From assembly GCF_001278755.1 (NCBI RefSeq), contig NZ_CP012601.1, forward strand, positions 3,968,154 through 4,032,153: DNA of 64,000 nt, in the 5' to 3' direction. Source of the DNA: Bacillus sp. FJAT-22090. Lineage in GTDB: Bacteria; Bacillota; Bacilli; Bacillales_A; Planococcaceae. The notes under the pieces are model-generated. The model saw only the letters and a program-made list of their open reading frames with translations, made no database searches and had not been told where the DNA came from. Positions 8,121 through 39,927 of the stretch are shown here, piece after piece (position 1 is the first letter of the stretch; every line of letters begins with the position of its first letter). The translations under genes and the position numbers were made by a program.

Positions 8121-9824
8121 TTAAATATTTTTGTTTAGAATCCTGAAAATCTTTAAAGCGATTTGAATACGAAGTAATTCTTCGGAGCTTTTTAAGTCCG
8201 TATTTAATATTTCTTTAATCTTTTCAATTCTATAAATTAGTGTGTTTCTATGTAAGAACATAGCTTTTGATGTTTCGGATACATTTTGATTATTGTAAAA
8301 GTAGTTTTCTAAAGTGGATATATAGCTTGTTCCATTTAGTTTGTCGTGTTCATAGATTTTACCCAGGCATTTGTAGAAAAAGTCCTCTAATTCAGCGGAG
8401 TTTATATTAGCATCTAATAGATGATATACAGAATAATCCTCAAAGTGGGATACTACGTTTGTTTCGTTCATCTGTTGCATTAACCTAATCATTTCGTTTG
8501 CTTCTGAGAAACTTTTATATAGAGTTCCTATTGAGCGGTACTGTTGGCCAATGCCAATTAAGAAGGGCTTCTTTAATCTTTCAACTAATTTTTCATGTAA
8601 ATCGGTTGCATATTGCTTTGCTTCACTAACGGTTATTGGCGGTCGATCTTCGTTTTGACCAACTAAAACGATTATTCGATTATTTCGATAGAAGGATGTT
8701 ATTTCTCCGTTTGCTTTATAAGACATTTCATAAACTATTTCTACGCTTTTTTGTGCTATATTCTCCATTTTATATTTTCCAATAATCATGTCCTCGAATT
8801 TATCCACTTCATTTGCTTCAATATTTATAACGAGACAGTAATACATATAATTTGGATTTAATCCGTGCAAGTCACATAAAGTTTGTAAAGTTTCTGGAGA
8901 AGTAATTTTCCCAGAAAGTAAATCGTCATAGAAATCCTGTCTAATTTTTAGTTTGACCTCTTCAATTTCCTTTGCTTTTATTCTTTCTAGTGCCATGACT
9001 GTAGAAGCTTGCTGTAAGATTATATAATCGAATTCAGTTAAATTCCGGACGGTTTGCCAAATAACCATATACCCATATATATCTTGTGAAGCTGCTATCG
9101 GGAGGACTCTGCAAATTATTTTTGTACCGTTTAAATCATAGACTCGTTTTATTGATTTTTTCATATCACTTAAATTATCAGGAATGGTATTGATAAATTC
9201 CTTATTAAAAATGGACTTGTCTGTTTTTAGATTAAGTGAATGTTCGAGAGGATAAGGGTTGTCCATATGCTCTGAGTAGTTTAAAAGCTTCCAGTTTTTA
9301 TCCACTATTATGATTGGATTATTTATTGTGCCACAAAGCATAGAGGAAATCCTTGTGATTCCTCCACCTTCCAATGTAATTCTAAAGAACAAATTATGCA
9401 TGTCCAATGTTTGTCTGTTTAATAGGTCATATCTGCCCGATGCTTTTTCATTGATGATCGCGATGACATTCGAAAGTGTGTACCCAATCGGTAATTCAAG
9501 AAGGGGTAAACCATGTTTGTTTGCTTCATCAATCATATTCTGTGGAAGCTTATCAAAGTATCTTTTCATTTTAACAACAAGCCCCGCACAGTTAATCTCT
9601 GAAAGCTCCTTGATGATTTTATTTTGTAGCTCTTCGTTATCCTTGAATATATACCCAGTAGATAGTAATAATTCATTTGGTGATAGCCAGTCAAATGCAT
9701 CTGGATTTTCAATAATATTAACAATAGATATTTCGTTATGAATACCTTTTTCTCCCGCAACTATCTTGAGACCATCAATCGCTTTTATTTCTAGTAGGTC
9801 TTTTACTTTAAGCAATTTTCTCAC
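8121..9824 (-). CDS. pucR: PucR-family transcriptional regulator of purine catabolism
   Basis: A 567-residue PucR/CdaR-type regulator. The N-terminal PucR ligand domain spans about residues 5-130 (LLKVKDLLEIKAIDGLKIVAG), a GGDEF-like middle region follows, and the C-terminal PucR helix-turn-helix is at about 505-560 (NVSETSKAMFLHRNTLIYRI). In B. subtilis PucR activates purine degradation genes in response to allantoin-type intermediates. It is transcribed divergently from the allHFG genes, the usual arrangement. The outermost start is GTG 9824, but AGGGG (complement of about 9826-9830) is one base from it and ten bases from TTG 9815, which may be the real start. Signal and regulon are inferred from neighbours. 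Confidence 0.88.
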   Translation of the reverse strand: MRKLLKVKDLLEIKAIDGLKIVAGEKGIHNEISIVNIIENPDAFDWLSPNELLLSTGYIFKDNEELQNKIIKELSEINCAGLVVKMKRYFDKLPQNMIDEANKHGLPLLELPIGYTLSNVIAIINEKASGRYDLLNRQTLDMHNLFFRITLEGGGITRISSMLCGTINNPIIIVDKNWKLLNYSEHMDNPYPLEHSLNLKTDKSIFNKEFINTIPDNLSDMKKSIKRVYDLNGTKIICRVLPIAASQDIYGYMVIWQTVRNLTEFDYIILQQASTVMALERIKAKEIEEVKLKIRQDFYDDLLSGKITSPETLQTLCDLHGLNPNYMYYCLVINIEANEVDKFEDMIIGKYKMENIAQKSVEIVYEMSYKANGEITSFYRNNRIIVLVGQNEDRPPITVSEAKQYATDLHEKLVERLKKPFLIGIGQQYRSIGTLYKSFSEANEMIRLMQQMNETNVVSHFEDYSVYHLLDANINSAELEDFFYKCLGKIYEHDKLNGTSYISTLENYFYNNQNVSETSKAMFLHRNTLIYRIEKIKEILNTDLKSSEELLRIQIALKIFRILNKNI

Positions 9825-9917
9825 ACCCCTAAGACATAATTTATATCTACTCGTCTAGGCTTCGGCACCAAATCTAATTTTCTTTAGTTGTACAACGTGC
9901 ACAAACTATATCCACTC

Positions 9918-9966
9918 TTTTTGGTTTGAATAAACGATGACCTTAGCATGTACCCTATTCTATAGT
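9918..9966 (+). promoter_or_regulatory. Promoter of the allHFG unit with PucR-type motif
   Basis: TTTTTGGTTTGAATA (9918-9932) is followed by the -35-like ATGACC (9937-9942) and a -10-like TATAGT (9961-9966, spacer 18). TTGG starts exactly 16 bases before the -35-like box, the same as at 18436 and 21092. The weak -35 and the upstream motif suggest activator-dependent transcription, with the regulator probably PucR, whose B. subtilis box has a TTGG core. Confidence 0.6.
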
Positions 9967-10097
9967 ATTTATGTAAAGGTGATATATGTCAAAGGCAAAT
10001 TGTATAAGGTGAACAAAAAATAGAGGGCTTGTAGGGAGGTGTTTTATTGTAGAAACAAACAATACAATACATTCTTTCAAAAACAGAGGTGGTACTA

Positions 10098-10982
10098 GTG
10101 GTGTTAGCGAAATCGGGGGATAGTAATTTTATTCAGAGAATTCTCCACTCCAACTTAAGTGGTTTTGTTCATAGCACTTTTAATCGCACTTACAATATAC
10201 AATGTCTTGAAGATGGCGAACTGTATACCATTGCATGTAATGAACTAGATAATGGACCAAATACCCTTGTCGTTGATTTGACTACATTTAAAGATATGAA
10301 TATCAATGTTTATGATGAAGTGGTAGCAGCTAATAAGCGTCTATCCATCGGAAACAAAATGTCCATATCGATCGATAAGGCCGAAAGTTGGGAAGGCGAC
10401 TTGCCTACATATCCCACCAATACGGAATGTTTAAAGGAAAATGTAAAGATTATGAAGCAATACATCGAAATCCACGGAAAAAGTGGAGGCATTAAAAGTA
10501 AGAGCATGAATGAAAGTTCTTTTGAAAGTGAAATGGCAAAAATGATTAAGGAAAGAACTGACCTTCTGATGAAGGAATTGTTAAGCAAACGATTTCGATC
10601 AGCTGTACCACATGCGATTTCCCTTATAGGTCTTGGTCCAGGGTTAACACCTTCTGGAGATGATTTTCTAGTAGGATTATTCACGACCTTTCATTTGAAA
10701 GGCAGTCCGTTTTCTTCACAAAGATGGTTTTGTGAAGAGATAGAAAAAGTTGCAAAAACTGCTACGAATGATATTAGCTATATTGCTATTAAGAAAGCTT
10801 CAGCGGGAAAGGTGAGAGAGTCAATTGTCGATTTAGTCTCTGCTTTACTTGTTGAAAATGAAAAGAATATGATTCTCTCATTAAGAAAAGTATTAACTAT
10901 TGGTTCTTCGTCTGGAACAGATATAGCTTTAGGTATTCTAGACGGACTAGAAGCAAATATAAAAATTGGAGGTACATTATGA
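10098..10982 (+). CDS. allH: Oxamate carbamoyltransferase subunit, DUF2877/AllH family
   Basis: A 294-residue protein of the DUF2877 family with the signature LIGLGPGLTPSGDDFLVG at about residues 175-192. In E. coli the homologue YlbF (AllH) forms, with FdrA (AllF) and YlbE (AllG), the enzyme that splits oxalurate into oxamate and carbamoyl phosphate. Start GTG 10098 is chosen because AGAGG (10085-10089) is eight bases away; GTG 10089 overlaps that site. It overlaps allF by four bases (ATGA), indicating translational coupling. A strong GGGAGG at about 10034-10039 upstream leads to no long frame. Family assignment is firm; the subunit role is from the E. coli work. Confidence 0.85.
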   Translation: MVLAKSGDSNFIQRILHSNLSGFVHSTFNRTYNIQCLEDGELYTIACNELDNGPNTLVVDLTTFKDMNINVYDEVVAANKRLSIGNKMSISIDKAESWEGDLPTYPTNTECLKENVKIMKQYIEIHGKSGGIKSKSMNESSFESEMAKMIKERTDLLMKELLSKRFRSAVPHAISLIGLGPGLTPSGDDFLVGLFTTFHLKGSPFSSQRWFCEEIEKVAKTATNDISYIAIKKASAGKVRESIVDLVSALLVENEKNMILSLRKVLTIGSSSGTDIALGILDGLEANIKIGGTL

Positions 10983-12526
10983 CTGTTCAAGTTGTAATAA
11001 AAGCAAATACGTATTTCGATTCTGTATCTTTAATGTCTCTATCGACAAAAGCAAACCAAATAGAAGGCGTTGAACAAGCCATCATTGCAATGGGTACTGA
11101 AATGAATAAAGAGGTAATTAGAAATGTTGGTCTAATAACGCCAGAAGTGGAAGCTGCAAAAACGAGTGATCTAATGATCGTCGTCAAAGGTGAAAACGAG
11201 GAAGTTTGTGAAAGCGCTTTCGAAAGTATAGAGGAATTATTAACAAAGAAAAACACAAATAACAAAGGTACGAGCGAAATAAAATATTCCACTATTAAAT
11301 CAGCTGCAGAACATATACCTGAAGCAAATATAGCTGTGATTGCTGTTAATGGGGCTTATGCACCTAGAGAAGCGAAAAAGGCATTAGAAAATAATCTTCA
11401 CGTTATGATGTTCAGCGATAATGTTTCGATTGAAGATGAGATTGAGTTAAAGTCTATCGCACATGAAAAAGGGCTACTAATGATGGGGCCAGACTGTGGA
11501 ACTGCAATTATCGGAAATATTGCACTTTGTTTTGCGAATGCAGTAAGAAAAGGAAATATCGGGATTGTTGGTGCATCAGGAACTGGTAGCCAAGAAATAA
11601 GTGTTCGAATCCATGAATTTGGAGGAGGTATTACACAACTGATTGGAACAGGGGGCCGCGATCTAAGTGAAGAAGTTGGCGGTATTATGATGCTTGATGG
11701 TATAAAAGCCCTTGAAGAAGATGAAGCGACAAAGGTGATTGTCCTTGTATCGAAACCGCCTGCGCCAAGTGTAGAAGAAAAAGTGCTGGAACAAATCAAA
11801 CTTTGTACGAAGCCAGTGGTTGTTTGGTTTGTTGGAGGAGATGAAGAGAAGGTAACAAAGGCTGGAGGACATTTTGCAAAAATGTCTAAAGAGGCAGCTT
11901 TAAAAGCAGTTCTACTTGCGGGTGCAGACGAAAGCAAGCTAAATAAACGTGCACTAAATCTCCCTCTTATCGAAGAGGTTCGCACCAAGTTAAAGCCTGA
12001 GCAAAAGTATATTCGTGGCTTATTTAGTGGAGGAACTCTTTGCGATGAAGCAATGCATATCGCTATGGAAAAATTTGATGACGTTTATAGCAATATTCAA
12101 AGAGATGCAGAGTTCCGTTTAAAAGATATTAAAGTTAGCCAATCGCATACATTTATTGATTTTGGGGACGATCAGTTTACACAAGGTAAACCACACCCAA
12201 TGATAGACCCATCTACTCGTATAGAACGTTTTATCCAAGAAGCGAAAGACCCTTCAGTTGGCGTTATTGTAATGGACTTTGTTTTAGGCTTCGGTGCTCA
12301 TGAGGATCCAGTAGGAGCAATGCTTCCCGCAATCATTGAGGCAAAACAGTTAGCAGAGAATGAAGGAAGACATCTAGAAATTATTGGATATATTTTAGGG
12401 ACGGAATTAGACAGTCAAAATATAGAGGGCCAAATAAACAAATTATTAGCTGCAGGTGCAACCCACGCTAGTAGTAGCCAAAACGCTGGATTATTGGCAA
12501 GAGAATTTGTTGTGAAAGGAGAATAA
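10979..12526 (+). CDS. allF: FdrA/AllF-family subunit of oxamate carbamoyltransferase
   Basis: A 515-residue FdrA family protein with the succinyl-CoA-synthetase-like CoA/phospho-ligand fold. Recognisable segments are the nucleotide-binding NIGIVGASGTGSQEISVRI (about residues 195-213) and GLFSGGTLCDEAM (about 345). The family's active-site His position appears replaced, as usual for FdrA. With AllG and AllH it should transfer the carbamoyl group between oxalurate and phosphate in the cytoplasm. GGAGG precedes the ATG, which overlaps the allH stop; allG follows after two bases. The three genes are therefore one tightly coupled unit, supporting a stoichiometric complex. Confidence 0.87.
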   Translation: MTVQVVIKANTYFDSVSLMSLSTKANQIEGVEQAIIAMGTEMNKEVIRNVGLITPEVEAAKTSDLMIVVKGENEEVCESAFESIEELLTKKNTNNKGTSEIKYSTIKSAAEHIPEANIAVIAVNGAYAPREAKKALENNLHVMMFSDNVSIEDEIELKSIAHEKGLLMMGPDCGTAIIGNIALCFANAVRKGNIGIVGASGTGSQEISVRIHEFGGGITQLIGTGGRDLSEEVGGIMMLDGIKALEEDEATKVIVLVSKPPAPSVEEKVLEQIKLCTKPVVVWFVGGDEEKVTKAGGHFAKMSKEAALKAVLLAGADESKLNKRALNLPLIEEVRTKLKPEQKYIRGLFSGGTLCDEAMHIAMEKFDDVYSNIQRDAEFRLKDIKVSQSHTFIDFGDDQFTQGKPHPMIDPSTRIERFIQEAKDPSVGVIVMDFVLGFGAHEDPVGAMLPAIIEAKQLAENEGRHLEIIGYILGTELDSQNIEGQINKLLAAGATHASSSQNAGLLAREFVVKGE

Positions 12527-12528
12527 CA

Positions 12529-13956
12529 ATGAGTAGAATAAATGAGCTTTTTAATGAAAAATTACATGTTATTAACGTGGGAATCGAATCTTTTAAGGAT
12601 GATATGCTAAAGCAAAATGCTGCTGTTACACATTTAGAATGGATGCCACCAGGTAGAGGGAATCCTGATATAATTGCTGCTCTTGATCAGTTAGAAGAAC
12701 CAAGCATAGCCGAAAAAATTGATGCTGCAAACAAAATTGCGGTAGAAAGAATTATTAACTCACAACCTGTATTGATAGGTTTTGACCAAGCGATCAATGT
12801 AGTGCCTGGTATGACGAAAAAGACTATTTTACATGCAGGACCACCAATTACATGGGACAAAATGAATGGACCAATGAAAGGTGCAGTTACAGGAGCATTG
12901 GTGTTTGAAGGTTTAGCAAAAGATATTGAGGAAGCAGCGGAACTAGCAGCTTCAGGAGAAATTACTTTCTCTCCTTGTCATGAACATAACTGTGTAGGTT
13001 CAATGGCTGGGGTTACTTCTGCATCGATGTTTATGCACATTGTTGAAAATAAAACATATGGAAATATTGCCTTCACTAATTTAAGTGAGCAATTGTCTAA
13101 AATTCTTCGTATGGGCGCAAACGATGAGAGTGTTATTAACCGTCTAAATTGGATGCGCGATGTATTAGGTCCAATGTTAAGAGACGCAATGAAGTTAAAT
13201 CCTAATGGAATTGACTTACGATTAATGTTGGCACAAGCACTCCATATGGGAGATGAGTGTCATAACCGTAATGTTGCAGGGACTACATTACTTATTCAAG
13301 CGTTAACTCCTTATCTTATTCAAACGGATTTCACTACAGAACAGAAGAAAGAAGTATTTGATTTTGTAGCTAGCAGTGATTACTTTTCTGGTCCTACGTG
13401 GATGGCATTATGTAAATGTGCACTTGATGCAGCACATGGTATTGAAAACAGCACAATTGTTACTACGATGGCTCGTAACGGAGTGGAATTTGGTATTCGC
13501 GTTAGTGGAATGGCAGGTAACACGTGGTTTACAGGTCCAGCTCAAAAAGTAATTGGACCGATGTTTGCTGGATATAAACCAGAGGATTCCGGTTTAGATA
13601 TTGGTGATAGTGCAATTACAGAGACTTATGGAATTGGCGGATTTGCAATGGCAACAGCACCAGCTATTGTTGCACTCGTAGGTGGAACGGTTGACGATGC
13701 TATTGGTTTTTCAACTCAAATGAAGGAAATCACAACAACTGAAAACCAAAACGTCACAATTCCCTTATTAAACTTCATGGGTATTCCGACTGGAATCGAT
13801 GTCCAAAAAGTAATTCAAACAGGTATTATGCCAATCATTAACACTGCGATTGCTCATAAAGACGCAGGAATTGGAATGATCGGTGCTGGTATTACGAATC
13901 CACCAATGGAAGCATTTGAAAAGGCAATAATAGCTTTAAGTGAAAGCGTTAAGTAA
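12529..13956 (+). CDS. allG: DUF1116/AllG-family subunit of oxamate carbamoyltransferase
   Basis: A 475-residue DUF1116 protein (E. coli YlbE/AllG). It keeps the conserved stretches LEWMPPGRGNPDI near residue 36, LHAGPPITWDKMNGPMKGA near 103, the cysteine/histidine-rich FSPCHEHNCVGSMAGVTSA near 145, and GDECHNRN near 240, plausible catalytic residues. The start follows AAAGGAGAATAACA. It lies two bases after allF and completes the allH-allF-allG set, whose product carbamoyl phosphate could be used by the carbamate kinase at 15282. A hairpin without a T tract lies downstream, followed by the ankyrin-TPR gene. Confidence 0.87.
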   Translation: MSRINELFNEKLHVINVGIESFKDDMLKQNAAVTHLEWMPPGRGNPDIIAALDQLEEPSIAEKIDAANKIAVERIINSQPVLIGFDQAINVVPGMTKKTILHAGPPITWDKMNGPMKGAVTGALVFEGLAKDIEEAAELAASGEITFSPCHEHNCVGSMAGVTSASMFMHIVENKTYGNIAFTNLSEQLSKILRMGANDESVINRLNWMRDVLGPMLRDAMKLNPNGIDLRLMLAQALHMGDECHNRNVAGTTLLIQALTPYLIQTDFTTEQKKEVFDFVASSDYFSGPTWMALCKCALDAAHGIENSTIVTTMARNGVEFGIRVSGMAGNTWFTGPAQKVIGPMFAGYKPEDSGLDIGDSAITETYGIGGFAMATAPAIVALVGGTVDDAIGFSTQMKEITTTENQNVTIPLLNFMGIPTGIDVQKVIQTGIMPIINTAIAHKDAGIGMIGAGITNPPMEAFEKAIIALSESVK

Positions 13957-14018
13957 ACTAAGATATTTTAATCGAATTTCTGAACAGATTGAACGAATCC
14001 AACATTTTTGTCCTAATT

Positions 14019-14051
14019 ACACAGGAGAATCAAGGCTTTTTTCTTCTGTGT
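14019..14051 (+). other. Hairpin between allG and the ankyrin-TPR gene
   Basis: ACACAGGAGAA pairs along 11 positions (one G-T) with TTCTTCTGTGT across an 11-base loop. No T run follows, so it is better seen as a processing, stability or partial-termination site that could set the ratio of carbamoyltransferase to downstream products. Confidence 0.45.
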
Positions 14052-14088
14052 AGCTTGACACAAATCAGTCTGAATTGAGGAGAGAAAA

Positions 14089-15270
14089 ATGGTGAATTAT
14101 GCCTTTAACATAGAACTTTTAAAAGCCGCTGAATTAGGTGATCTTGCTGAAATCGAACAGTTATTAAGTGATGGAGCAAGTGTTGATTTCAAAGATGAAG
14201 CGGGACGTACTGCTTTAATGGCAGCTACACAGAAAAATCAGATTGCAGCTGCAAAGATGTTAATAGAAGCAGGGAGTGATGTAAATACGAGGGATATTAC
14301 ACAACTCTCTCCATTTATTTGCTCAGCAGCAAATGGTTTTCACGAGATTTTGCGAATGATGATTGACGGAGGAGCAGATTTAACGAGCGTTAATCGTTTT
14401 GGTGGGACGGCATTATTACCTTCGAGTGAAAAAGGATATTGGAAAACGGTACAAATCTGTTTAGATGCTGGTGTACCTGTGAATCATGTGAACAATTTAG
14501 GATGGTCTGCCCTACTTGAGGCGGTTATTTTAGGGAATGGAGGGCGTTTATACGCTGATATCATTCAAACGCTTGTTGATGCAGGTGCGGATGTGCATTT
14601 AGTAGACCATGACGGAAAATCATCTGTCCAACATGCGATAGAGCTAAATCAACATAAAGTAGTTCGTATTTTGGCAAAAGACTGGAAAGAAGATTCTCAG
14701 TTCATCTCTAAAGCTAAGTCACTTGCTAAACTAGACAAATATGAAGAGGCACTTAATGAAATGAATGCTGCGCTTGCCATGGACGATCAAAATACGGATT
14801 ACCTTTATTACAAAGGATATTTTCTACAAGAGTTAAAGCGATATGAAGAAGCGCTTGATGAGTACAATAAAGCATTAGCGATTACTCCGAATGATTTAGA
14901 TTTTTATTTTTATACAGCAAACTGTTTGAGATTGTGGAAAAAGCCAGAGGAAGCATTAGGTGAATATGATAAAGCTTGTGCAATTAATCCAACTGAGACG
15001 TTTTATCGTTACCATAAATCAAATTATTTAAGAGAGCTAGGAAGGCATGAAGAAGCGGTTATCGAAATGAATGAGCTTCTAGCACTTCAACCAAATAGAT
15101 ATGATTTTTCCTTCCATCAAGCAAACAGTCTAAGATCGTTAGGAAAACATCAAGAAGCAATTGAAGCCATCGAGAATGCTATAAAGAATGATCCAACGAA
15201 TCCTTTGTACCATTCACACAAAGAACAATCGATTGAATTACTAAGAAAGACAGGTAATTCATCGTTTTAG
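14089..15270 (+). CDS. Ankyrin-repeat plus TPR-repeat fusion protein
   Basis: A 393-residue soluble protein built only of helical repeats. About residues 5-205 are five to six ankyrin repeats (for example DEAGRTALMAATQKNQIAAA and GWSALLEAVILGNG), and about 205-385 are four to five tetratricopeptide repeats (YEEALNEMNAALAMD, YEEALDEYNKALAITP, HQEAIEAIENAI). No catalytic domain, signal or membrane segment is seen. Such repeats bind proteins. GAGGAGAG precedes the ATG. It sits between allG and carbamate kinase, an unusual place, with only 11 bases to the kinase start. A scaffold or regulator for the carbamoyl-handling enzymes is possible, but this is inference from position. Confidence 0.85.
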   Translation: MVNYAFNIELLKAAELGDLAEIEQLLSDGASVDFKDEAGRTALMAATQKNQIAAAKMLIEAGSDVNTRDITQLSPFICSAANGFHEILRMMIDGGADLTSVNRFGGTALLPSSEKGYWKTVQICLDAGVPVNHVNNLGWSALLEAVILGNGGRLYADIIQTLVDAGADVHLVDHDGKSSVQHAIELNQHKVVRILAKDWKEDSQFISKAKSLAKLDKYEEALNEMNAALAMDDQNTDYLYYKGYFLQELKRYEEALDEYNKALAITPNDLDFYFYTANCLRLWKKPEEALGEYDKACAINPTETFYRYHKSNYLRELGRHEEAVIEMNELLALQPNRYDFSFHQANSLRSLGKHQEAIEAIENAIKNDPTNPLYHSHKEQSIELLRKTGNSSF

Positions 15271-15281
15271 GAGGAAGACAA

Positions 15282-16232
15282 GTGGGGGAAGTAACAATCG
15301 TTGCCATAGGAGGCAATGCGTTAGTGAAAGAAAATGGTAGGGATTCCATTCAAGATCAATTGGAGGCAGTTCAAGAAACTGTCGTCCATATTGCTGACAT
15401 GGTTGAGCAAGGCTACAAGGTGGTTGTTACTCATGGTAATGGTCCTCAAGTAGGTTTTGGGCTTAGAAGATCTGAGATAGCAAATGAAGTAGCGGGTATG
15501 CCAATGATCCCTCTAGTTAACTGTGTGGCAGATACACAAGGCGGAATTGGATACCAGATTGAACAGGCATTGATCAATGAATTTGCAAAAAGAGGTATTA
15601 ATAAAAAAGTCGCAACCATTATCACTCAGGTAGAAGTAAGCCCGAAGGATCCAAATTTTCAAAACCCAACAAAACCAGTAGGATCGTTCTTTACACTTGA
15701 ACAATCCGAATCAATGAAAAAGGAACATCCTGAATGGCATTTCATAGAGGATTCTGGTCGTGGGTACAGAAGAGTCGTTCCATCGCCAAGGCCTATTGAT
15801 ATTGTGGAAAAAGATGCTATAAAGCTATTAATTGAATCAGATTATGTAGTTATCGCAGCAGGTGGTGGGGGAATTCCTGTTGTAAAATCAGCGAATAATA
15901 CGTATGAGGGAATAGATGCAGTAATTGATAAGGATTTTGCAACAAGCCTTCTTGCAGAACAAATTGAAGCAGAAACTTTAATAATTACAACAGGAGTTTC
16001 AAGTGTTTATATAAACTTTGGTAAACCAAATCAACAAGTTTTAGAAACTGTAACGGTGGAGGAAACAAAACAGTATGCTCAAGAAAATCAATTTCCGGCT
16101 GGGAGTATGCTACCGAAAATTGAGGCGAGCTTAAGTTTCTTAGCACATAAAGGAAAAAGGGTTATTATTACAAATCCAGAAAGCTTGAAAGAAGCAATTA
16201 ATGAAAAAGCAGGTACTCATATAATCCATTAA
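15282..16232 (+). CDS. arcC: Carbamate kinase
   Basis: A 316-residue carbamate kinase of the amino-acid-kinase fold. It shows the N-terminal phosphate loop AIGGNAL (about residues 7-13), THGNGPQVG (about 51-59), the carbamoyl-binding region PSPRP (about 167-171), and AAGGGGIPV (about 192-200). It makes ATP and carbamate (then NH3 and CO2) from carbamoyl phosphate and ADP. The start is GTG, eight bases after AGGAGG. Placed directly after the allHFG set, it most likely recovers ATP from carbamoyl phosphate released from oxalurate, not from arginine: no arcA or arcB is nearby. Confidence 0.93.
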   Translation: MGEVTIVAIGGNALVKENGRDSIQDQLEAVQETVVHIADMVEQGYKVVVTHGNGPQVGFGLRRSEIANEVAGMPMIPLVNCVADTQGGIGYQIEQALINEFAKRGINKKVATIITQVEVSPKDPNFQNPTKPVGSFFTLEQSESMKKEHPEWHFIEDSGRGYRRVVPSPRPIDIVEKDAIKLLIESDYVVIAAGGGGIPVVKSANNTYEGIDAVIDKDFATSLLAEQIEAETLIITTGVSSVYINFGKPNQQVLETVTVEETKQYAQENQFPAGSMLPKIEASLSFLAHKGKRVIITNPESLKEAINEKAGTHIIH

Positions 16233-16234
16233 TA

Positions 16235-16266
16235 GACTAGGTGTAGGTTCTTATAGCCTCACCTAG
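16235..16266 (+). other. Hairpin after carbamate kinase
   Basis: CTAGGTGTAGG pairs with CCTCACCTAG across a nine-base loop, with one mismatch. There is no clear T tract, so it may be a weak terminator or an RNA-stability element before the permease gene. The rest of the 155-base gap shows nothing clear. Confidence 0.4.
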
Positions 16267-16387
16267 GCATTTATAATCTACAGAGCTGACCTAGCACTAA
16301 AGAAAGCTATGAATGAGAAGAATGAAAACGCTATCATATGGATGATAAGGGCAATGGAGTTATTTAAAAAGGCAGGAGTGTTAATTG

Positions 16388-17842
16388 ATGGCTCAAGCAA
16401 AAATAGAAGAGAATTACGACAAATATCAGTCCTACGGTTATGCGGAAGATCTACTTCCTAAAAAGCCAGACCAAAGGGATTGGGGTATGTCTAACTACGT
16501 TACACTTTGGATGGGTGCAGTTCATAATATTATGTCTTATATGACAGTAGCGGGATTTTTTATTCTCGGTCTTAATACAAAACAAGTTCTATTAGCTGTT
16601 ATGTTATCTGCTATTATTGTTTCCACATTTTATGTATTAAATGGTTATTCGGCATCCAAATATGGACTTCCATTTACCATGTTGCTAAGAGATTCATTCG
16701 GTGTGAAAGGTGCAATAATACCAGCATTATGTAGAGGGTTGATTGCTGGTGTAGTATTTTTTGGAACAACTACTGTAGTTGGGGCTGAATCATTAAATGT
16801 TATATTCTCGAGATTTTTCCCTGACTATATGAATCTAGGTGGAGATTTTAATATTCTCGGTTTAACCTTACCGACAATGATATCGTATTTAATTCTTTGG
16901 ACTGTTACAGTTCTTTTATTCTTAGGTGGGATGAGTTTTCTAGGTAAGTTTGGTAATTGGTCTTCACCTGTTGTGTACATATTTATCGTTGGAGCAGCAG
17001 TATGGGCTATTAATATAGCTGGTGGTTTTGGTCCAATTATGGATTACGTTCCGGCAAATCCTAACGCCAGTATTTTCGTGTTTATTGCCTGTGTCAGTGC
17101 ATTAGTTTCAAATTGGGCTGGCCCAGTAGTAAATATGGCTGATTTCACTCATCGAGCTAAATCACCAAGAGATATGATGATAGGTTTACCTTTAGGATTT
17201 ATGTTATCTTATGTGCTTTTCGCGATTACTTGTGTTGCTTTAATAGCAGGTACGGAAATTGCTTTTGGAGAGCCAATTTTCAATATCGTACATGCACTTG
17301 ATAAGATGGACAGCACATTTGCAGTTGTTGTATTAATATTAGCTCTTAATGTTGGAGCAATAGCTTTCGTTGTATATGCAAACTTACTTCCATCTGGATT
17401 ACAAATGTCAGCTCTCTTCCCAAAATTATTTACTGTAAAATCAGCAGGGATATTAACTGCGATCGTTGGTACATTAATTTTACCTTGGAAGCTTGTAGAA
17501 AGTGCTTCTACTTTATTTTACTTCTATAGCTTTATCGGTTCGATATTTGGTCCAATAGCTGGTATCATGCTATCTAGTTTTTTCATTCATAGAAAGAGAG
17601 TGCTAAATCTTGATAATATCTATGTGCCTCAAGAAAGTAATGGGGAATACAAGAATGGTTATAATCCGGTAGCAATGGTTGTTTTAGCAATTAGCTTCAT
17701 CCTTCCAATGTCTGGTGCTTTTCTAAAGAGTGTACCATTTTTAGTTAAAATGAATGAATTTGCATTCTTTAGTGGATTAATCGTTTCATTTATCTTATAT
17801 ACAATTTTTAGTACAACACTGAAGCAAAATTTAGAAAAATAA
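16388..17842 (+). CDS. NCS1-family permease, probably for allantoin or a purine-related base
   Basis: A 484-residue transporter with about 12 membrane helices, of the nucleobase-cation-symport-1 family (PucI/CodB/AllW). Typical NCS1 segments are LWMGAVHNIMSY near residue 36, NGYSASKYGLPF near 80 and ILPWKLVESASTLFYF near 360. It resembles B. subtilis PucI (allantoin permease) in layout and length. ATG 16388 is chosen over TTG 16385 because AGGAG (16374-16378) is nine bases away. It is followed after 19 bases by the guanine-deaminase-like gene. Allantoin is the likeliest substrate from context; cytosine or a purine remains possible. Confidence 0.88.
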   Translation: MAQAKIEENYDKYQSYGYAEDLLPKKPDQRDWGMSNYVTLWMGAVHNIMSYMTVAGFFILGLNTKQVLLAVMLSAIIVSTFYVLNGYSASKYGLPFTMLLRDSFGVKGAIIPALCRGLIAGVVFFGTTTVVGAESLNVIFSRFFPDYMNLGGDFNILGLTLPTMISYLILWTVTVLLFLGGMSFLGKFGNWSSPVVYIFIVGAAVWAINIAGGFGPIMDYVPANPNASIFVFIACVSALVSNWAGPVVNMADFTHRAKSPRDMMIGLPLGFMLSYVLFAITCVALIAGTEIAFGEPIFNIVHALDKMDSTFAVVVLILALNVGAIAFVVYANLLPSGLQMSALFPKLFTVKSAGILTAIVGTLILPWKLVESASTLFYFYSFIGSIFGPIAGIMLSSFFIHRKRVLNLDNIYVPQESNGEYKNGYNPVAMVVLAISFILPMSGAFLKSVPFLVKMNEFAFFSGLIVSFILYTIFSTTLKQNLEK

Positions 17843-17861
17843 TTGTAGGGGAGCAAAAATA

Positions 17862-18326
17862 ATGGATTATATGAAAATGGCTGTAGACGCAACAATTGAA
17901 GGAATGGATAAAAGGTATGGAGGACCTTTTGGGGCAACCATTGTTAGAGGTGATGAGGTTGTTGCGGCAGTAAGTAACACGATGATGAAGGACACAGATC
18001 CTTCAGCACATGCGGAAATGGTTGCAATAAGAGTAGCTTGTGAAAAGTTAGGCACAATGGATTTATCGGATTGCGTCATCTATGCAACTTGCGAGCCGTG
18101 CCCTATGTGCATGGGAGCAATCATTTGGTCGGGTGTGAAAGAAGTGCATTATTGCAGTACGAGAGATGATGCTAGTAAAAATGGATTTTCTGACATGCAT
18201 TTAAGAGATTATTTGTCTGGTAAAGATGAAAGTGTAGTAAATATGATTAAAGTGGATGATCGAGAAGACTGTGATTACCTATGGGAGCATTTTCATAATT
18301 TAACGAAAGAAAAAACGAATATGTAA
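17862..18326 (+). CDS. guaD: Guanine-deaminase-like nucleoside/base deaminase
   Basis: A 154-residue zinc deaminase of the CDA/GuaD fold. The zinc site is complete: HAEMVAI with His and the catalytic Glu (about residues 49-55), and CEPCPMC with the two Cys ligands (about 79-85). Length and arrangement match B. subtilis GuaD (156 residues), which converts guanine to xanthine and ammonia. AGGGGAG precedes the ATG. Position in a purine catabolic cluster supports guanine as the substrate; other small-base deaminases share the fold. A terminator ends the transcript. Confidence 0.8.
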   Translation: MDYMKMAVDATIEGMDKRYGGPFGATIVRGDEVVAAVSNTMMKDTDPSAHAEMVAIRVACEKLGTMDLSDCVIYATCEPCPMCMGAIIWSGVKEVHYCSTRDDASKNGFSDMHLRDYLSGKDESVVNMIKVDDREDCDYLWEHFHNLTKEKTNM

Positions 18327-18341
18327 AACTATTTTTTAAGT

Positions 18342-18378
18342 AAAACCGGAGCTTTATTAATAGCACGGTTCTTTTTAT
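18342..18378 (+). terminator. Intrinsic terminator after the deaminase gene
   Basis: AACCG and CGGTT flank GAGCTTTATTAATAGCA, in which AGCT/TAGC bases can extend the stem, and CTTTTT follows. It separates the deaminase unit from the next promoter. Confidence 0.6.
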
Positions 18379-18432
18379 TATACACAAATTTCCAATAAAA
18401 CTATTGTACAACTTGACCAAAATAACTCTAAT

Positions 18433-18480
18433 TTTTTGGTTTTAATAGACAGTGACTGCATAAAACCAACTGTATATAAT
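18433..18480 (+). promoter_or_regulatory. Promoter of the second purine permease with PucR-type motif
   Basis: TTTTTGGTTTTAATA (18433-18447) differs from the motif before allH at a single base. TTGG starts 16 bases before the -35-like GTGACT (18452-18457), which is 17 bases from a perfect -10 TATAAT (18475-18480). Confidence 0.7.
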
Positions 18481-18485
18481 TCGAA

Positions 18486-18500
18486 TTGTAAGCGCTTTCT
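18486..18500 (+). promoter_or_regulatory. Catabolite-responsive element (cre)
   Basis: TTGTAAGCGCTTTCT fits the CcpA cre consensus WTGNAANCGNWNNCW at every fixed position. It starts six bases after the TATAAT box, so bound CcpA would block transcription at or just after the start site. It implies that this permease is repressed when a preferred carbon source is present. Confidence 0.8.
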
Positions 18501-18539
18501 ATTTTGATATTATACCAACAATAAAAGGGGGAGCAAGGA

Positions 18540-20075
18540 ATGGCCGAAACTTTAAAGTATTGGAAAAAGGGTGACTGGGCCGCTTATTTTGGGTTGCTCG
18601 CGAACAATTTAACAAATCTATTAACAATGGTCTCATTATTACTTTTCGTTGTAGGTTTTCCTACGGAGATTGTGTATGGAAGGATAGTCCCTGGATTTGG
18701 ACTAGGTATCTTTTTAGCGAGTTGTTGTTACTTTATATTTGGTCGTATGCTTATAAAGGAAACAGGAAGGTTAGATGTAACGGCGTTACCATCAGGTCCT
18801 AGTGCTCCATCTATATTTACCGTTACCTTTTTAGTTATTCTACCTGTTTATAAGACGACGAATGATGCGAATTTTGCATTTTCCATAGCACTCGTTTGGT
18901 GTTTGTTTGAGGCAATGATCTTAATGCTAGGTGCCTTTCTAGGGGATACTTTAAGAAAGATAATTCCAAGGACAGTTCTTTTGTCTTGTTTATCTGGTCT
19001 TGGTTTATTACTACTCGCAATGAATCCAATGCTACAGTCGTTTGAAACACCAATCGTAGCTTTTGTCGTACTTGTTATTATATTTCTTAACTGGTTTGGA
19101 AAATCCCCTATATTTGCAAAGATTCCTACGGGGTTTTTATTGTTAGCAGCAGGAACTATATTAGCTTGGGTATTTGGATTACAAAGTCCCGAGGCAATTA
19201 CTGTGGCTCTCCAAAATTTAGGTTTTAACCCTCCAGAAGTTCATATTACTAGTCTAATTTCAGGAATTCCTCATGCGCTACCATATTTAGCATCTGCTGT
19301 ACCATTAGGCCTTGCAAATTATATTTTTGATTTGGAGAATATCGAAAGTGCGCATGCTGCCGGAGATTCATATAAAACACGCAGAGTAATGTTAGCAAAT
19401 GGTATTTCTTCCTGTGTTGGAGCATTTGCAGGTAACCCATATCCGGTAACAGTATATATTGGGCATGCAGGTTGGAAATCTATGGGTGCTGGTTTAGGTT
19501 ATACATTAGCAACTGGTACGTCCATGTTAATCATTTCCCTCTTCGGGATAGGTGCACTCTTATTGGCCATAATTCCTGTTGTCGCAATCGTCCCTATATT
19601 GGTCTACGTCGGTATTGTAACTGCCAATCAAGTTGTACGAGAGACTCCGAAAGTCGAGGTACCGGTCATATTTATTTGTTTGTTTCCATGGATTGCGAAC
19701 TGGGCATTGTCACTCGCTAACAATGTACTTAGCGCAGCTGGTACTACAGGTCAAGCAGTTGGCGCTCAAGTTCTTGCAGCCAAAGGAGTATATTATAATG
19801 GACTAATTCATTTAGGTAATGGTGCTCCAATAAGTAGTTTAATGTGGGGATGTATAGCGATTTTTTCTATAAACAATCAACCGATTCGTGCCGCAATTGC
19901 TGCTGTAATTGCTTCTATCCTTTCATTGTTCGGAATCATTCATGCAGGTACAGTAGGGTTTGCCCAAGAGGCATCTATGCAATTTGTATATGCATATCTA
20001 ATGGTAGCTTTGCTGTTTATCGTGAAATATTTAATGGATCGTGGAAGCAAGGTAGATGAGGTGTTAGTGAAGTAG
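18540..20075 (+). CDS. NCS2/AzgA-like purine permease
   Basis: A 511-residue transporter with about 12-13 membrane helices. The opening WAAYFGLLANNLTNLLTM and the GxFAGNPYPVTVYIGH segment (about residues 296-312) place it among the xanthine/uracil/AzgA permeases. The conserved acidic positions of the substrate site are represented by FDLENIESAHAAG (about 267-279). The likely cargo is a purine base or a ring-opened derivative. It is preceded by its own PucR-type promoter and cre site and followed by a bidirectional terminator, so it is a single-gene unit under both nitrogen-source and carbon-source control. Confidence 0.8.
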   Translation: MAETLKYWKKGDWAAYFGLLANNLTNLLTMVSLLLFVVGFPTEIVYGRIVPGFGLGIFLASCCYFIFGRMLIKETGRLDVTALPSGPSAPSIFTVTFLVILPVYKTTNDANFAFSIALVWCLFEAMILMLGAFLGDTLRKIIPRTVLLSCLSGLGLLLLAMNPMLQSFETPIVAFVVLVIIFLNWFGKSPIFAKIPTGFLLLAAGTILAWVFGLQSPEAITVALQNLGFNPPEVHITSLISGIPHALPYLASAVPLGLANYIFDLENIESAHAAGDSYKTRRVMLANGISSCVGAFAGNPYPVTVYIGHAGWKSMGAGLGYTLATGTSMLIISLFGIGALLLAIIPVVAIVPILVYVGIVTANQVVRETPKVEVPVIFICLFPWIANWALSLANNVLSAAGTTGQAVGAQVLAAKGVYYNGLIHLGNGAPISSLMWGCIAIFSINNQPIRAAIAAVIASILSLFGIIHAGTVGFAQEASMQFVYAYLMVALLFIVKYLMDRGSKVDEVLVK

Positions 20076-20084
20076 ATTAGTTAA

Positions 20085-20117
20085 AAATAACCTTTGCCTC
20101 TAGGGCAAAGGTTATTT
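20085..20117. terminator. Bidirectional terminator
   Basis: AAATAACCTTTGCC pairs with GGGCAAAGGTTATTT around TCTA, with A and T runs on either side. It serves the permease on the plus strand and the hydrolase on the minus strand. Confidence 0.85.
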
Positions 20118-20994
20118 ACGTCTTGTCAACTAAATGAGTATGGAGGAATTCAAACATCTCTTTAAGTGCAAGTTGAACAGCTGGATTGTGAAAATCTTTT
20201 TCAAATACATGCTCTCCATTTGAAATTGTAATTAATCTTGTTCTAACATTTTCTTTTATTAATGCAGCTCTCATAAATACCGATTGTAAGTATGGGACAT
20301 CTTTGTCATTTGTTCCATGTAAAAATAATGTTGGTGGATAGCTTTCTGTCACATGAAAAATAGGGCTATATCTTGATAGCTCTTCATTATTAGTTGGATA
20401 ACAGCCGGTGATTTGATGAATCCATTCCCCTGTTTGTCTAGCGTATAAATATAATAGAAAGCGTTCTTCTACGGATGCTTCTGTCTTTACTTCATTAGTT
20501 ATGAAATCTTTAATCATTTCTTTCGTTACCAAGTCTTTTTGAAGATAATAGCTATTTGGACAAATTGCCCACTCAGCACTAATATCTCCATAGCCATAAA
20601 AAGAAATGATTGCTAGTGGTTTGTTTTTAAAAGTTCCTGCATTAAGTGCGAGAAAGGCACCAGCCGAGCTTCCAACTAAGGCAATCTTTTTAGGGTTAAT
20701 AGAAAACAGATTCGGTCCTTCGGATTGGATCCATTGAATTGCATCTTCTATATCTTCTAAAATCTCTGGTAGTTTTGTTTCAGGAGCTAGTCTATAATTA
20801 ATAGAAAATAATCCATATCCATTACTCGTATATAGTTGAATCATTTCTTCACTAAGTTCTTCCTTCATTCCCCAAAGTAATCCACCACCATGAATATATA
20901 TAACAACCGGGGCATTAGATTGGGTAGTTCTATAATAATCTGCTTCTAATGTAAAATGATTATCCTTTTTGTAAACGACTGTTTGTTTAAACAA
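20116..20994 (-). CDS. Alpha/beta hydrolase, HSL (fold-3) esterase family
   Basis: A 292-residue cytoplasmic hydrolase. The oxyanion motif YIHGGGLLWG (about residues 33-42) and the nucleophile elbow VGSSAGAF (Ser about 111) mark the hormone-sensitive-lipase family; the acid is probably Asp in LHGTNDKDVP and the base His in NGEHVFEKD. It would hydrolyse short-chain esters or amides. It lies between two purine-catabolism units, but its own upstream region has no TTGG motif in the right orientation, so a role in that pathway is unproven. Confidence 0.85.
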   Translation of the reverse strand: MFKQTVVYKKDNHFTLEADYYRTTQSNAPVVIYIHGGGLLWGMKEELSEEMIQLYTSNGYGLFSINYRLAPETKLPEILEDIEDAIQWIQSEGPNLFSINPKKIALVGSSAGAFLALNAGTFKNKPLAIISFYGYGDISAEWAICPNSYYLQKDLVTKEMIKDFITNEVKTEASVEERFLLYLYARQTGEWIHQITGCYPTNNEELSRYSPIFHVTESYPPTLFLHGTNDKDVPYLQSVFMRAALIKENVRTRLITISNGEHVFEKDFHNPAVQLALKEMFEFLHTHLVDKT

Positions 20995-21087
20995 TTTTAT
21001 TCACGTCCAATGTTTATATATAAGAAGTACAGTATATCATTTAAATTCCTTAACTCCATTGTATATTCTGCACAATATATTAAGAAG

Positions 21088-21136
21088 TATCTTGGTTTTA
21101 TTCCACAATGACAGGAATAGTCAAACTGTATAAAAT
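21088..21136 (+). promoter_or_regulatory. Promoter of the allantoate hydrolase gene with PucR-type motif
   Basis: TTGGTTTTATTCCACA (TTGG at 21092) stands 16 bases before the -35-like ATGACA (21108-21113), followed at 17 bases by TAAAAT (21131-21136). An exact TTGGTTAA also occurs downstream at 21154-21161, close to the ribosome site, and could be a second contact. Confidence 0.6.
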
Positions 21137-21181: not shown

Positions 21182-22420
21182 ATGGATAGTAAAATGAGAT
21201 ACGAGCTACTATTTAACAATATTAACCAATACAACACCGGGGATACGGGTATCACAAGAATTGCTTATACGAATGAAGAGCAAACTTGTACACACGCATT
21301 TATGCGTATGTGTATGGCGGAGCAGTTAGATATTAGAATGGATCCATGTGGAAATGTTATTGCAAGAAGGCAAGGTAAAATAGACGGACTTCCACCTGTC
21401 GTCATGGGTTCTCATTTGGATACTGTGTATCAAGGTGGAAAATATGATGGGGTAGTTGGAGTCACAGCTGCACTTGAAGTAATTAGACGGTTAAATGAAA
21501 AAAAAATTATAACCGATCATCCAATTGAGATAATTTCTTTTGCTTGTGAAGAATCTGCTCGTTTTGGTGTTTCGACAGTAGGCAGTAAAGCAATCGCTGG
21601 CCAATTTGATAAAGATAGATATCGAAATATAAAGGACAAAGATGGCATTACGATGGAAAAGGCATTTGCACTATGTGCGCTAGATTTTAATACAGTTGAT
21701 CAAGCAAGCAGGAAAAACGAACAGTTTAAAGCATTTTTTGAGTTGCATATTGAGCAAGGACCAGTGCTAATAAATACTGGTAAGAAAATTGGTATTGTTA
21801 CAGGGATAGCAGCACCTGTGCGACTTCATGTGAAAATAAAGGGAACTGCTTCGCATTCAGGAACTACACCTATGAGTATGAGAAAAGATGCCCTTCTTGG
21901 GGCATCTGAAATTTCGTTAGCCCTTGAAAAAGCCGCAAAAAGCGAAGAGGCATATGGTACTGTTGCAACGATCGGAGTAATGAATGTTCATAATGGCGCT
22001 ATGAATGTAGTGCCCGGGGATGTGGAAATTAAAATTGACATACGGTCTACTTCCGTAGATTCAAGACAGAGAGTGCTTACTCATTTAGAGGAGACGATTA
22101 AAACAGTAAAACAAAATAGACAGTTGGATATTGAAAGCATTGAGATTAGTTCAGAAGACCCTGTGCTTCTATCAGAGGAAATAAATGATGTCCTGCGTAA
22201 TATTTGTGAAGAGAAGAATTTCTCCAACCAAATAATGCAAAGTGGTGCTGGGCATGATGCAATGAACATGGCGAAGTTATGTCCGACAGGCCTAATCTTT
22301 ATCCCATCTTTAGATGGACTTAGTCATCATCCGAATGAGTACACGCCTCTAGATGATATTATGGTTGGCATCGATTTGTTGGAAGAAGTGATTCTTCATT
22401 ATTCTAAAAGTGAAAAATAA
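21182..22420 (+). CDS. allC: Allantoate amidohydrolase / N-carbamoyl amino acid hydrolase family
   Basis: A 412-residue binuclear metallopeptidase-like enzyme of the M20 family. Metal ligands are seen in GSHLDTVYQGGKYDG (about residues 78-92), the catalytic base in CEESARFG (about 124-131), a ligand in HIEQGP (about 190), and the substrate-side SGAGHDAMNMA (about 357-367). Allantoate amidohydrolase releases ammonia and CO2 from allantoate to give ureidoglycine or ureidoglycolate. AAAGGGGA precedes the ATG. The purine context favours allantoate; N-carbamoyl-amino acid hydrolase activity is the main alternative. Confidence 0.82.
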   Translation: MDSKMRYELLFNNINQYNTGDTGITRIAYTNEEQTCTHAFMRMCMAEQLDIRMDPCGNVIARRQGKIDGLPPVVMGSHLDTVYQGGKYDGVVGVTAALEVIRRLNEKKIITDHPIEIISFACEESARFGVSTVGSKAIAGQFDKDRYRNIKDKDGITMEKAFALCALDFNTVDQASRKNEQFKAFFELHIEQGPVLINTGKKIGIVTGIAAPVRLHVKIKGTASHSGTTPMSMRKDALLGASEISLALEKAAKSEEAYGTVATIGVMNVHNGAMNVVPGDVEIKIDIRSTSVDSRQRVLTHLEETIKTVKQNRQLDIESIEISSEDPVLLSEEINDVLRNICEEKNFSNQIMQSGAGHDAMNMAKLCPTGLIFIPSLDGLSHHPNEYTPLDDIMVGIDLLEEVILHYSKSEK

Positions 22421-38448: not shown

Positions 38449-39927
38449 ATGAATAAAAATTATCCAGACGACGGTTTAGCATTACATACTGATTTATATC
38501 AAATTAATATGGCCGAATCTTATTGGGCAGATAATATGCATGAAAGGAAAGCCGTGTTTGAACTATTCTTTCGGAAGCTACCATTTGGTAATGGGTATGC
38601 AATTTTTGCTGGATTAGAGAGATGTCTTGATTATTTGCGTGACTTTCATTTTACCGAAAGTGATTTAGCTTATTTAAAAGATGAACTTGGATATAGAGAT
38701 GATTTTATCGAATATTTACGTACGCTTCGATTTACGGGAGATGTATATTCAATGGTAGAAGGAGAACTTGTTTTTCCGAATGAGCCAATTATGCGCATAG
38801 AATCTTCTTTAGCAGAGGCACAGCTAGTGGAAACTGCCCTGTTGAATATTGTTAATTACCAAACGTTAATTGCAACAAAAGGATCACGAATCAAACAAGT
38901 GGTAAAAGATGAACTCGCAATGGAATTTGGTTCTAGAAGAGCACAAGAAATGGATGCTGCAATTTGGGGAACTCGTGCTGCTTATATAGGCGGAATTGAG
39001 TCGACCAGTAATGTTCGTGCGGGAAAAATGTTCGGTATTCCTGTCTCTGGCACACACGCTCATTCTCTCGTGCAAGCTTATAAAAGTGAATATGAAGCTT
39101 TTCATTCATATGCAAAACGCCATAAAGATTGTGTTTTCTTAGTGGACACTTATAATACACTGAAAACCGGTGTTCCTACTGCCATAAAAGTAGCAAAAGA
39201 GCTTGGGGATAAAATTAATTTTATCGGGATTCGTCTAGATTCTGGGGATATCTCCTTCCTTTCAAAAGAAGCTAGGAAAATGCTCGATCAAGCTGGATTT
39301 ACAGATACTAAAATTATTGTATCTAATGATTTAGATGAATATACAATTTTAAATTTAAAAGCACAAGGCGCAAAAGTGGATAGCTGGGGTATTGGGACGA
39401 AACTAATCACAGCATATGATCAGCCTGCGTTAGGAGCTGTTTATAAAATCGTATCTATTGAAGATGAAGATGGAGTCATGCAAGATACGATAAAAATTTC
39501 CTCTACTACAGAAAAAGTAACAACTCCAGGTCAAAAGAAGCTATATCGAATTATTGATAAAGAAAATGGTAAAGCAGAAGGCGATTATATTGCAATGCAT
39601 GATGAGGACCCGACACATGAGAAACGTTTAAAGATGTTCCACCCGGTTCACACATTTGTATCAAAGTTTGTAACAAACTTTGAAGCAAAGGATTTACATG
39701 TAAAAGTAATTGAAAATGGCCAAGTAATTTATGACATTCCTGAGTTGAATGATGTGCGCAAATACGCACATGAGAATTTGGATTTGCTATGGGATGAGTA
39801 TAAACGTTCTCTAAACCCTGAGGAATACCCAGTGGATTTAAGTCAGAAGTGCTGGGATAATAAAATGCGTAATATTCAAGAAGTTAAAGAAATGGAACAT
39901 AATTTTATTTTGCAAAATGGAGGTTGA
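38449..39927 (+). CDS. pncB: Nicotinate phosphoribosyltransferase
   Basis: A 492-residue enzyme that joins nicotinate to PRPP (with ATP hydrolysis) to give nicotinate mononucleotide, the entry step of NAD salvage. Family segments are LHTDLYQINMAESYW (about residues 12-26), FGSRRAQEMDAAIWG (about 162-176), SGTHAHSLVQAY (about 200) with the phosphorylated-His region, and FIGIRLDSGDI (about 260). AGAAGGGG lies eight bases before ATG 38449; the frame's earlier Met at 38431 is part of that leader. nadE follows after six bases. Confidence 0.95.
   Translation: MNKNYPDDGLALHTDLYQINMAESYWADNMHERKAVFELFFRKLPFGNGYAIFAGLERCLDYLRDFHFTESDLAYLKDELGYRDDFIEYLRTLRFTGDVYSMVEGELVFPNEPIMRIESSLAEAQLVETALLNIVNYQTLIATKGSRIKQVVKDELAMEFGSRRAQEMDAAIWGTRAAYIGGIESTSNVRAGKMFGIPVSGTHAHSLVQAYKSEYEAFHSYAKRHKDCVFLVDTYNTLKTGVPTAIKVAKELGDKINFIGIRLDSGDISFLSKEARKMLDQAGFTDTKIIVSNDLDEYTILNLKAQGAKVDSWGIGTKLITAYDQPALGAVYKIVSIEDEDGVMQDTIKISSTTEKVTTPGQKKLYRIIDKENGKAEGDYIAMHDEDPTHEKRLKMFHPVHTFVSKFVTNFEAKDLHVKVIENGQVIYDIPELNDVRKYAHENLDLLWDEYKRSLNPEEYPVDLSQKCWDNKMRNIQEVKEMEHNFILQNGG

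Follow-up and report, generated by a model that had tools for sequence, protein, structure and literature searches.

The window analysed here is a stretch of 64,000 nucleotides (64 kb) from Bacillus sp. FJAT-22090 that contains genes of purine catabolism, three promoters of which share an element formed by a 17-bp dyad and a TTGG box joined to a -35-like RTGAC. The first of these promoters leads allH, fdrA (allF) and allG, whose products have a role as oxamic transcarbamylase (PMC11326118). After allG come genes for an ankyrin and tetratricopeptide repeat (ANK/TPR) protein, carbamate kinase, an allantoin-type permease, a deaminase, a second permease, an esterase and an allC-like protein, and the other two promoters precede the second permease gene and the allC-like gene. 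Divergent from allH is a PucR-family regulator gene, which an earlier reading of these letters (the original prediction) had also described. The encoded protein belongs to the PucR protein family (PF07905, 109.6 bits, cut-off 33.5; HTH_30, 71.6 bits, cut-off 27) and is the one PF07905 protein found in a search of its own genome. The features at the locus are as follows.

8121-9824, minus strand: PucR-family regulator gene (domains: PucR N-terminal, GGDEF-like, C-terminal HTH_30)
9888-9904, no strand: dyad 1, TTGTACAACGTGCACAA, a predicted operator for the allH operon and perhaps for pucR
9918-9941, plus strand: box 1, TTTTTGGTTTGAATAAACGATGAC, TTGG box with the -35-like ATGAC
9961-9966, plus strand: predicted -10-like TATAGT of the allH operon
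10089-13956, plus strand: allH, fdrA/allF and allG, oxamic transcarbamylase genes, led by promoter 1
18404-18420, no strand: dyad 2, TTGTACAACTTGACCAA, with a 12-bp gap to box 2
18433-18456, plus strand: box 2, TTTTTGGTTTTAATAGACAGTGAC
18475-18480, plus strand: predicted -10-like TATAAT of the xanthine permease promoter
18486-18500, plus strand: CcpA catabolite-responsive element (cre)-like site, TTGTAAGCGCTTTCT
18540-20075, plus strand: AGZA-type xanthine permease gene (the second permease), named from close relatives
20116-20994, minus strand: esterase gene
21059-21075, no strand: dyad 3, TTGTATATTCTGCACAA
21089-21112, plus strand: box 3, ATCTTGGTTTTATTCCACAATGAC
21131-21136, plus strand: predicted -10-like TAAAAT of the allC promoter
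21182-22420, plus strand: allantoate amidohydrolase gene (allC-like)

The box was found at all three promoters just as originally predicted. RTGAC starts exactly 16 bases after the start of TTGG (at 9921, 18436 and 21092), sites 1 and 2 are identical at 14 of 15 bases, and the -10-like hexamers TATAGT, TATAAT and TAAAAT lie 18, 17 and 17 bases past the -35-like hexamers. What that reading had missed is the 17-bp dyad, TTGTRYANNNTGCMYAA, which is present at all three promoters and starts 33, 32 and 33 bases ahead of TTGG at sites 1, 2 and 3. The order of the composite is the dyad (TTGTRYA-N3-TGCMYAA), a gap of 12-13 bp, TTTTTRGNTTNNNTANNCRATGAC, about 18 bp and the -10 hexamer. With at most one mismatch, the plus strand of the window has four such dyads, of which three belong to these sites, and the minus strand has one, at dyad 1 itself. 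A further dyad-like sequence (at most one mismatch) lies at 10000-10016, in the allH leader, past the predicted start.

Conservation and specificity of the composite element

The dyad was found by aligning relatives, using 80 loci that encode AllG. We scanned for the dyad and TTTTTRG separated by any gap from 0 to 40 bp, with at most two mismatches in total. The pair was present in 45 of the 48 loci L057-L104, all of them from Bacilli by title, and the gap was 13 bp in 45 of 45. The loci without the pair were L077, L104 and L073, where the contig begins inside allH and the allH promoter was unscorable. None of the 30 scorable loci among L105-L136, which are mostly from Proteobacteria and include an Enterococcus locus (L111), contained the pair; one of the two unscorable loci in this group was from Bacilli (L106).

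Across 32 non-redundant sites, conservation peaks at the dyad, the box, ACRATGAC and the -10 hexamer, and the dyad is conserved as strongly as the box 12-13 bp downstream of it. ATGA stands at the originally predicted register in 39 of the 45 loci (the other six differ, one having GTGA) and the -10-like hexamer starts 18 nt past the box in 34. The box reads TTTTTGG in 32 loci, TTTTTAG in 11, and TTTTCGG and TTTTCAG in one each; TTGG is not invariant, its first G being replaced by A in 12 of 45. As a promoter element, the composite is genuine, bipartite and conserved. Within the box, a second inverted repeat (GTTT-N4-AAAC) was noted by eye and dropped, the right half being unchanged in TTGGATT variants. 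In the allH promoters of L057-L103, the region from about +1 to +30 contains a TGTAAGG-like block, followed by TGTCAA in several loci.

The shorter patterns were poor guides to the regulon. A genome scan for the bare TTGG-N12-RTGAC had been proposed in the original prediction; in the 4.21-Mb genome it gave 33 matches vs 55 for the reversed control, and this pattern, which is not enriched, was rejected as a search tool. A consensus built from the three window sites was circular and gave 107 matches vs 130 for the control at three mismatches, and the box combined with CTAAAAT at fixed spacing recovered site 2 only. A 24-nt consensus, TTTTTGGTTTNNNTANACRATGAC, was read from the allH promoters of relatives, a test that is not wholly independent because those sites had been located with a pattern from the window's three. 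With at most three mismatches in the own genome it gave five matches vs six in the control. The two best were sites 1 and 2 (0 and 1 mismatch), site 3 with three mismatches was at background level by this measure, and the remaining two (three mismatches) were inside open reading frames (ORFs). With at most one mismatch in 200 genomes of the family, it gave 19 matches in 16 genomes vs five in the control. The 19 comprised 12 allH-operon or xanthine permease promoters and seven matches within ORFs; six of the seven come from one genus and are closely similar in sequence.

The whole composite, allowed at most three mismatches, matched sites 1 and 3 only in the own genome and had no control match; this pattern was fixed at a 13-bp gap and therefore missed site 2. 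In 261 genomes of the order there were 19 matches in 15 genomes, 18 of them upstream of the allH operon, a xanthine permease homolog or allC and one inside an ORF. In 398 genomes of the class there were 17 matches with at most two mismatches in 17 genomes, all ahead of the allH operon. The reversed control gave no match in either sample. These scans of the own genome, family, order and class are genome-wide tests.

A relaxed scan (gap of 12 or 13 bp, at most seven mismatches) covered 50 sequences comprising 1.06 Mb (the window, L057-L103, L248 and L249) and gave 90 matches and none in the control. The loci were mostly chosen for encoding AllG, so enrichment there is no genome-wide test. The genes behind these matches were allH (36), the ANK first gene (11), fdrA (4), the xanthine permease (13), allC (5), the first permease (3), the esterase (1) and others (12), with no gene within 800 bp in three cases and a contig end in two. 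Nine of the 12 others were annotated: five permeases (three of the cytosine/purine type, two NCS2), an amidohydrolase and, as less informative cases, a PAS/HTH regulator, a DUF4015 protein and a VanW protein at a distance of 702 bp. Of the three left unannotated, the match at window position 39745, inside an ORF, is probably chance. By gene family, the targets fall in purine catabolism families. A wider nucleobase regulon is hinted at by weaker composites in genomes of Neobacillus and related Bacillus sp., which stand ahead of genes for cytosine/purine-type and NCS2 permeases and an amidohydrolase (L063:3407, L064:5628, L074:5496, L074:16863, L090:3981 and L090:16914).

Probable assignment to the PucR-family protein

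Among the class genomes, the composite and a regulator of at least 60% identity to the PucR-family protein of the window occur in one and the same set of 17. The next regulator below this value, in genome G262, is 56% identical, and there the composite is present but diverged. AllG was found in 40 of the 398 class genomes, and 23 of these 40 have no regulator of at least 56% identity. The composite occurs in none of the 23, some of whose AllG proteins may be paralogs. A search of 22 AllG loci from these genomes, each of about 3.6 kb, found no relaxed composite. Genome G607 has both regulator and composite and no AllG match. Seven of seven tested composite genomes that lack pucR in the fetched stretch encode a 66-70% identical PucR elsewhere, and for L057 the PucR lies just past the end of that stretch. 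In L077, the operon is present, the composite is absent and the best PucR match is only 22% identical; in the L104 and L111 genomes, which have no composite, a PucR is found at 36%. A xanthine permease gene heading its own unit (no cluster-gene homolog within 160 bp upstream) had the composite in 11 of 14 cases and one inside an operon in none of 13.

Because the composite tracks the regulator across genomes and precedes the xanthine permease that heads its own unit, a PucR-family factor is likely, and one regulon with such a factor is well supported. The original prediction of one PucR regulon is supported in part, as regards a PucR-family factor, through this co-occurrence and the composite at separate purine promoters; it had seen only the promoter-proximal half of the element. 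The dyad kept ahead of pucR in L195 and L196 and the inverted repeats of 17, 21 and 24 bp that other PucR-family proteins bind (PMC7652997) also speak for such a factor. The element and its fixed geometry are established, as are its conservation over several genera of Bacilli, its place before purine genes and its co-occurrence with the regulator. We strongly infer from the comparisons of sequence that the regulator is the PucR-family protein, and we consider it probable that the divergent protein binds the shared dyad and TTGG/RTGAC element and activates the purine genes on a purine breakdown product. Relative to the predicted start, the dyad spans about -84 to -68 and the TTGG box about -54 to -45. 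Both would be contacted by oligomers of the protein, and the position of the element fits direct binding upstream of the -35. Oligomers so placed would bring RNA polymerase to promoters whose -35 (RTGACN) is poor. The dyad beside pucR may serve autoregulation, and the inducer could be allantoin, allantoate, oxalurate or a similar compound.

Several observations weigh against this reading. The composite genomes span four of the 145 genera in the class sample, and the co-occurrence rests on these. The composite usually adjoins pucR, so both are often inherited as one cluster; this linkage of pucR and the operon is the main confound for the regulator assignment. No composite occurs in locus L203, where pucR is not beside allH and the only one-mismatch dyad lies about 180 bp upstream. 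At site 2, dyad and box are 12 bp apart, unlike the usual 13 bp. The weakest member is allC, with a composite (at most six mismatches) in three of 12 relatives, plus G129. A further point, the shape of the Bacillus subtilis PucR site, bears on the first of the alternatives below.

Two factors might share the element, the PucR-family protein reading one half and another regulator or the polymerase reading the other. The dyad and the box are unlike each other. L195 and L196 have pucR away from allH, and a dyad (one mismatch) is kept there just ahead of pucR, with no TTTTTGG box that could be recognised. The B. subtilis PucR box is TTGG-like. The B. subtilis site is not palindromic and other family members bind inverted repeats (PMC7652997), so the dyad could belong to another factor. 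Against such a division, which we regard as unlikely, all 45 scored loci hold the two halves at one fixed gap, and the class genomes that have both halves are only those with this PucR-family regulator.

It is more improbable still that a different regulator binds (TnrA/GlnR or an unidentified protein of the cluster) and that pucR is a mere neighbour. Purine genes of B. subtilis are also under TnrA/GlnR (PMC3412718). Against this, the best match to TGTNAN7TNACA, the TnrA/GlnR consensus, has two to three mismatches at the three promoters, and that candidate site was rejected. A widespread factor would predict neither confinement of the composite to the 17 genomes carrying this PucR-family regulator nor its absence from L077. 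Lastly, that TTGG-N12-RTGAC is a coincidence of AT-rich promoters is hardly credible: the lack of enrichment of the bare pattern agrees with it, but the longer element is kept at fixed spacing across genera, and the absence of reversed-control matches in the 261 and 398 genomes refutes coincidence for the composite.

Comparison with related systems

The B. subtilis PucR regulon was reportedly described by Beier in 2002, with the box WWWCNTTGGTTAA. Sites 1, 2 and 3 miss this box at 4, 3 and 4 of its 12 positions and share its TTGGTT core. The window regulator is 24% identical to the 531-aa PucR encoded beside an allantoinase gene in G410, which we take to be a B. subtilis group genome; this pairwise identity is far below the 56-73% found within the composite-bearing clade. 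The composite was not found in two B. subtilis-like pucR regions, L245 and L246, where the best matches had 11 and eight mismatches, and the eight-mismatch match just downstream of pucR in L246 was taken for chance. Between pucR and pucH, L245 and L246 each have one copy of the WWWCNTTGGTTAA box (at most one mismatch), and L245 has another copy; in no case does RTGAC stand at the 16-base register. In protein identity, box and composite, the link to B. subtilis PucR drawn in the original prediction is weak. The system described here is like the B. subtilis PucR regulon in having a PucR-family regulator, purine catabolism genes and a TTGGTT-containing box. It is unlike it in the 17-bp dyad added at fixed spacing and in its targets, which are the oxamate branch (allFGH), the xanthine permease and allantoate amidohydrolase. 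B. subtilis PucR is reported to activate from sites upstream of the -35 and to repress from sites overlapping the -35 or downstream of the start (PMC10242094, citing Beier 2002).

Few PucR-family operators have been characterised, and those described disagree, being inverted repeats for GabR (21 bp), PutR (17 bp) and AdeR (24 bp) and non-palindromic for B. subtilis PucR (PMC7652997). GabR of Corynebacterium glutamicum, like the regulator here, is a divergently encoded PucR-family protein; it is an activator and binds two elements between -87 and -23, weakly with one site and much more strongly with two (PMC7652997). Its elements are two 21-bp inverted repeats (PMC7652997), whereas here there is one 17-bp dyad plus a non-palindromic TTGG box. 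Like the dyad, the operators of PutR and AdeR in B. subtilis are inverted repeats (17 and 24 bp; PMC7652997). The composite here unites the inverted-repeat and the non-palindromic TTGG styles of PucR-family sites and, with dyad and TTGG box at fixed spacing, offers a direct test of the DNA and polymerase contacts of the family. PutR and AdeR serve other target pathways. The allF operon of Escherichia coli encodes the same oxamate-branch enzymes and is regulated by AllS and ArcA, unlike the operon here (PMC12535856); the composite and its likely regulator name a counterpart to these, with a regulon, for the oxamate branch in Bacilli.

A more tentative possibility, somewhat less likely than not, is that the PucR-family proteins of several genera of Bacilli form a clade distinct from B. 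subtilis PucR in which one oligomer bridges the dyad and the box 13 bp apart, the TTGG box being fused to a degenerate -35, so that purine uptake and the oxamate branch of allantoin degradation would be switched in a way that depends on the geometry of the element. A literature search, which is weak evidence with most subscription journals outside its coverage, returned no title or abstract describing the dyad or the composite.

Other features touch single genes of the cluster. Just 3' of the -10 hexamer of promoter 2, the cre-like site has no mismatches to the cre consensus, and because of this match carbon catabolite repression of the xanthine permease gene is likely. The permease encoded at 18540-20075 matched no Pfam or NCBIfam model; its close relatives, where named, are mostly called xanthine permease, and 316 relatives scored at E <= 0.001 despite the lack of a family model match. 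Most related loci have homologs of the ankyrin and TPR repeat protein encoded at 14089-15270, within the oxamate-branch operon. In several loci, an ankyrin protein of about 200 aa is encoded by the first gene behind the composite promoter.

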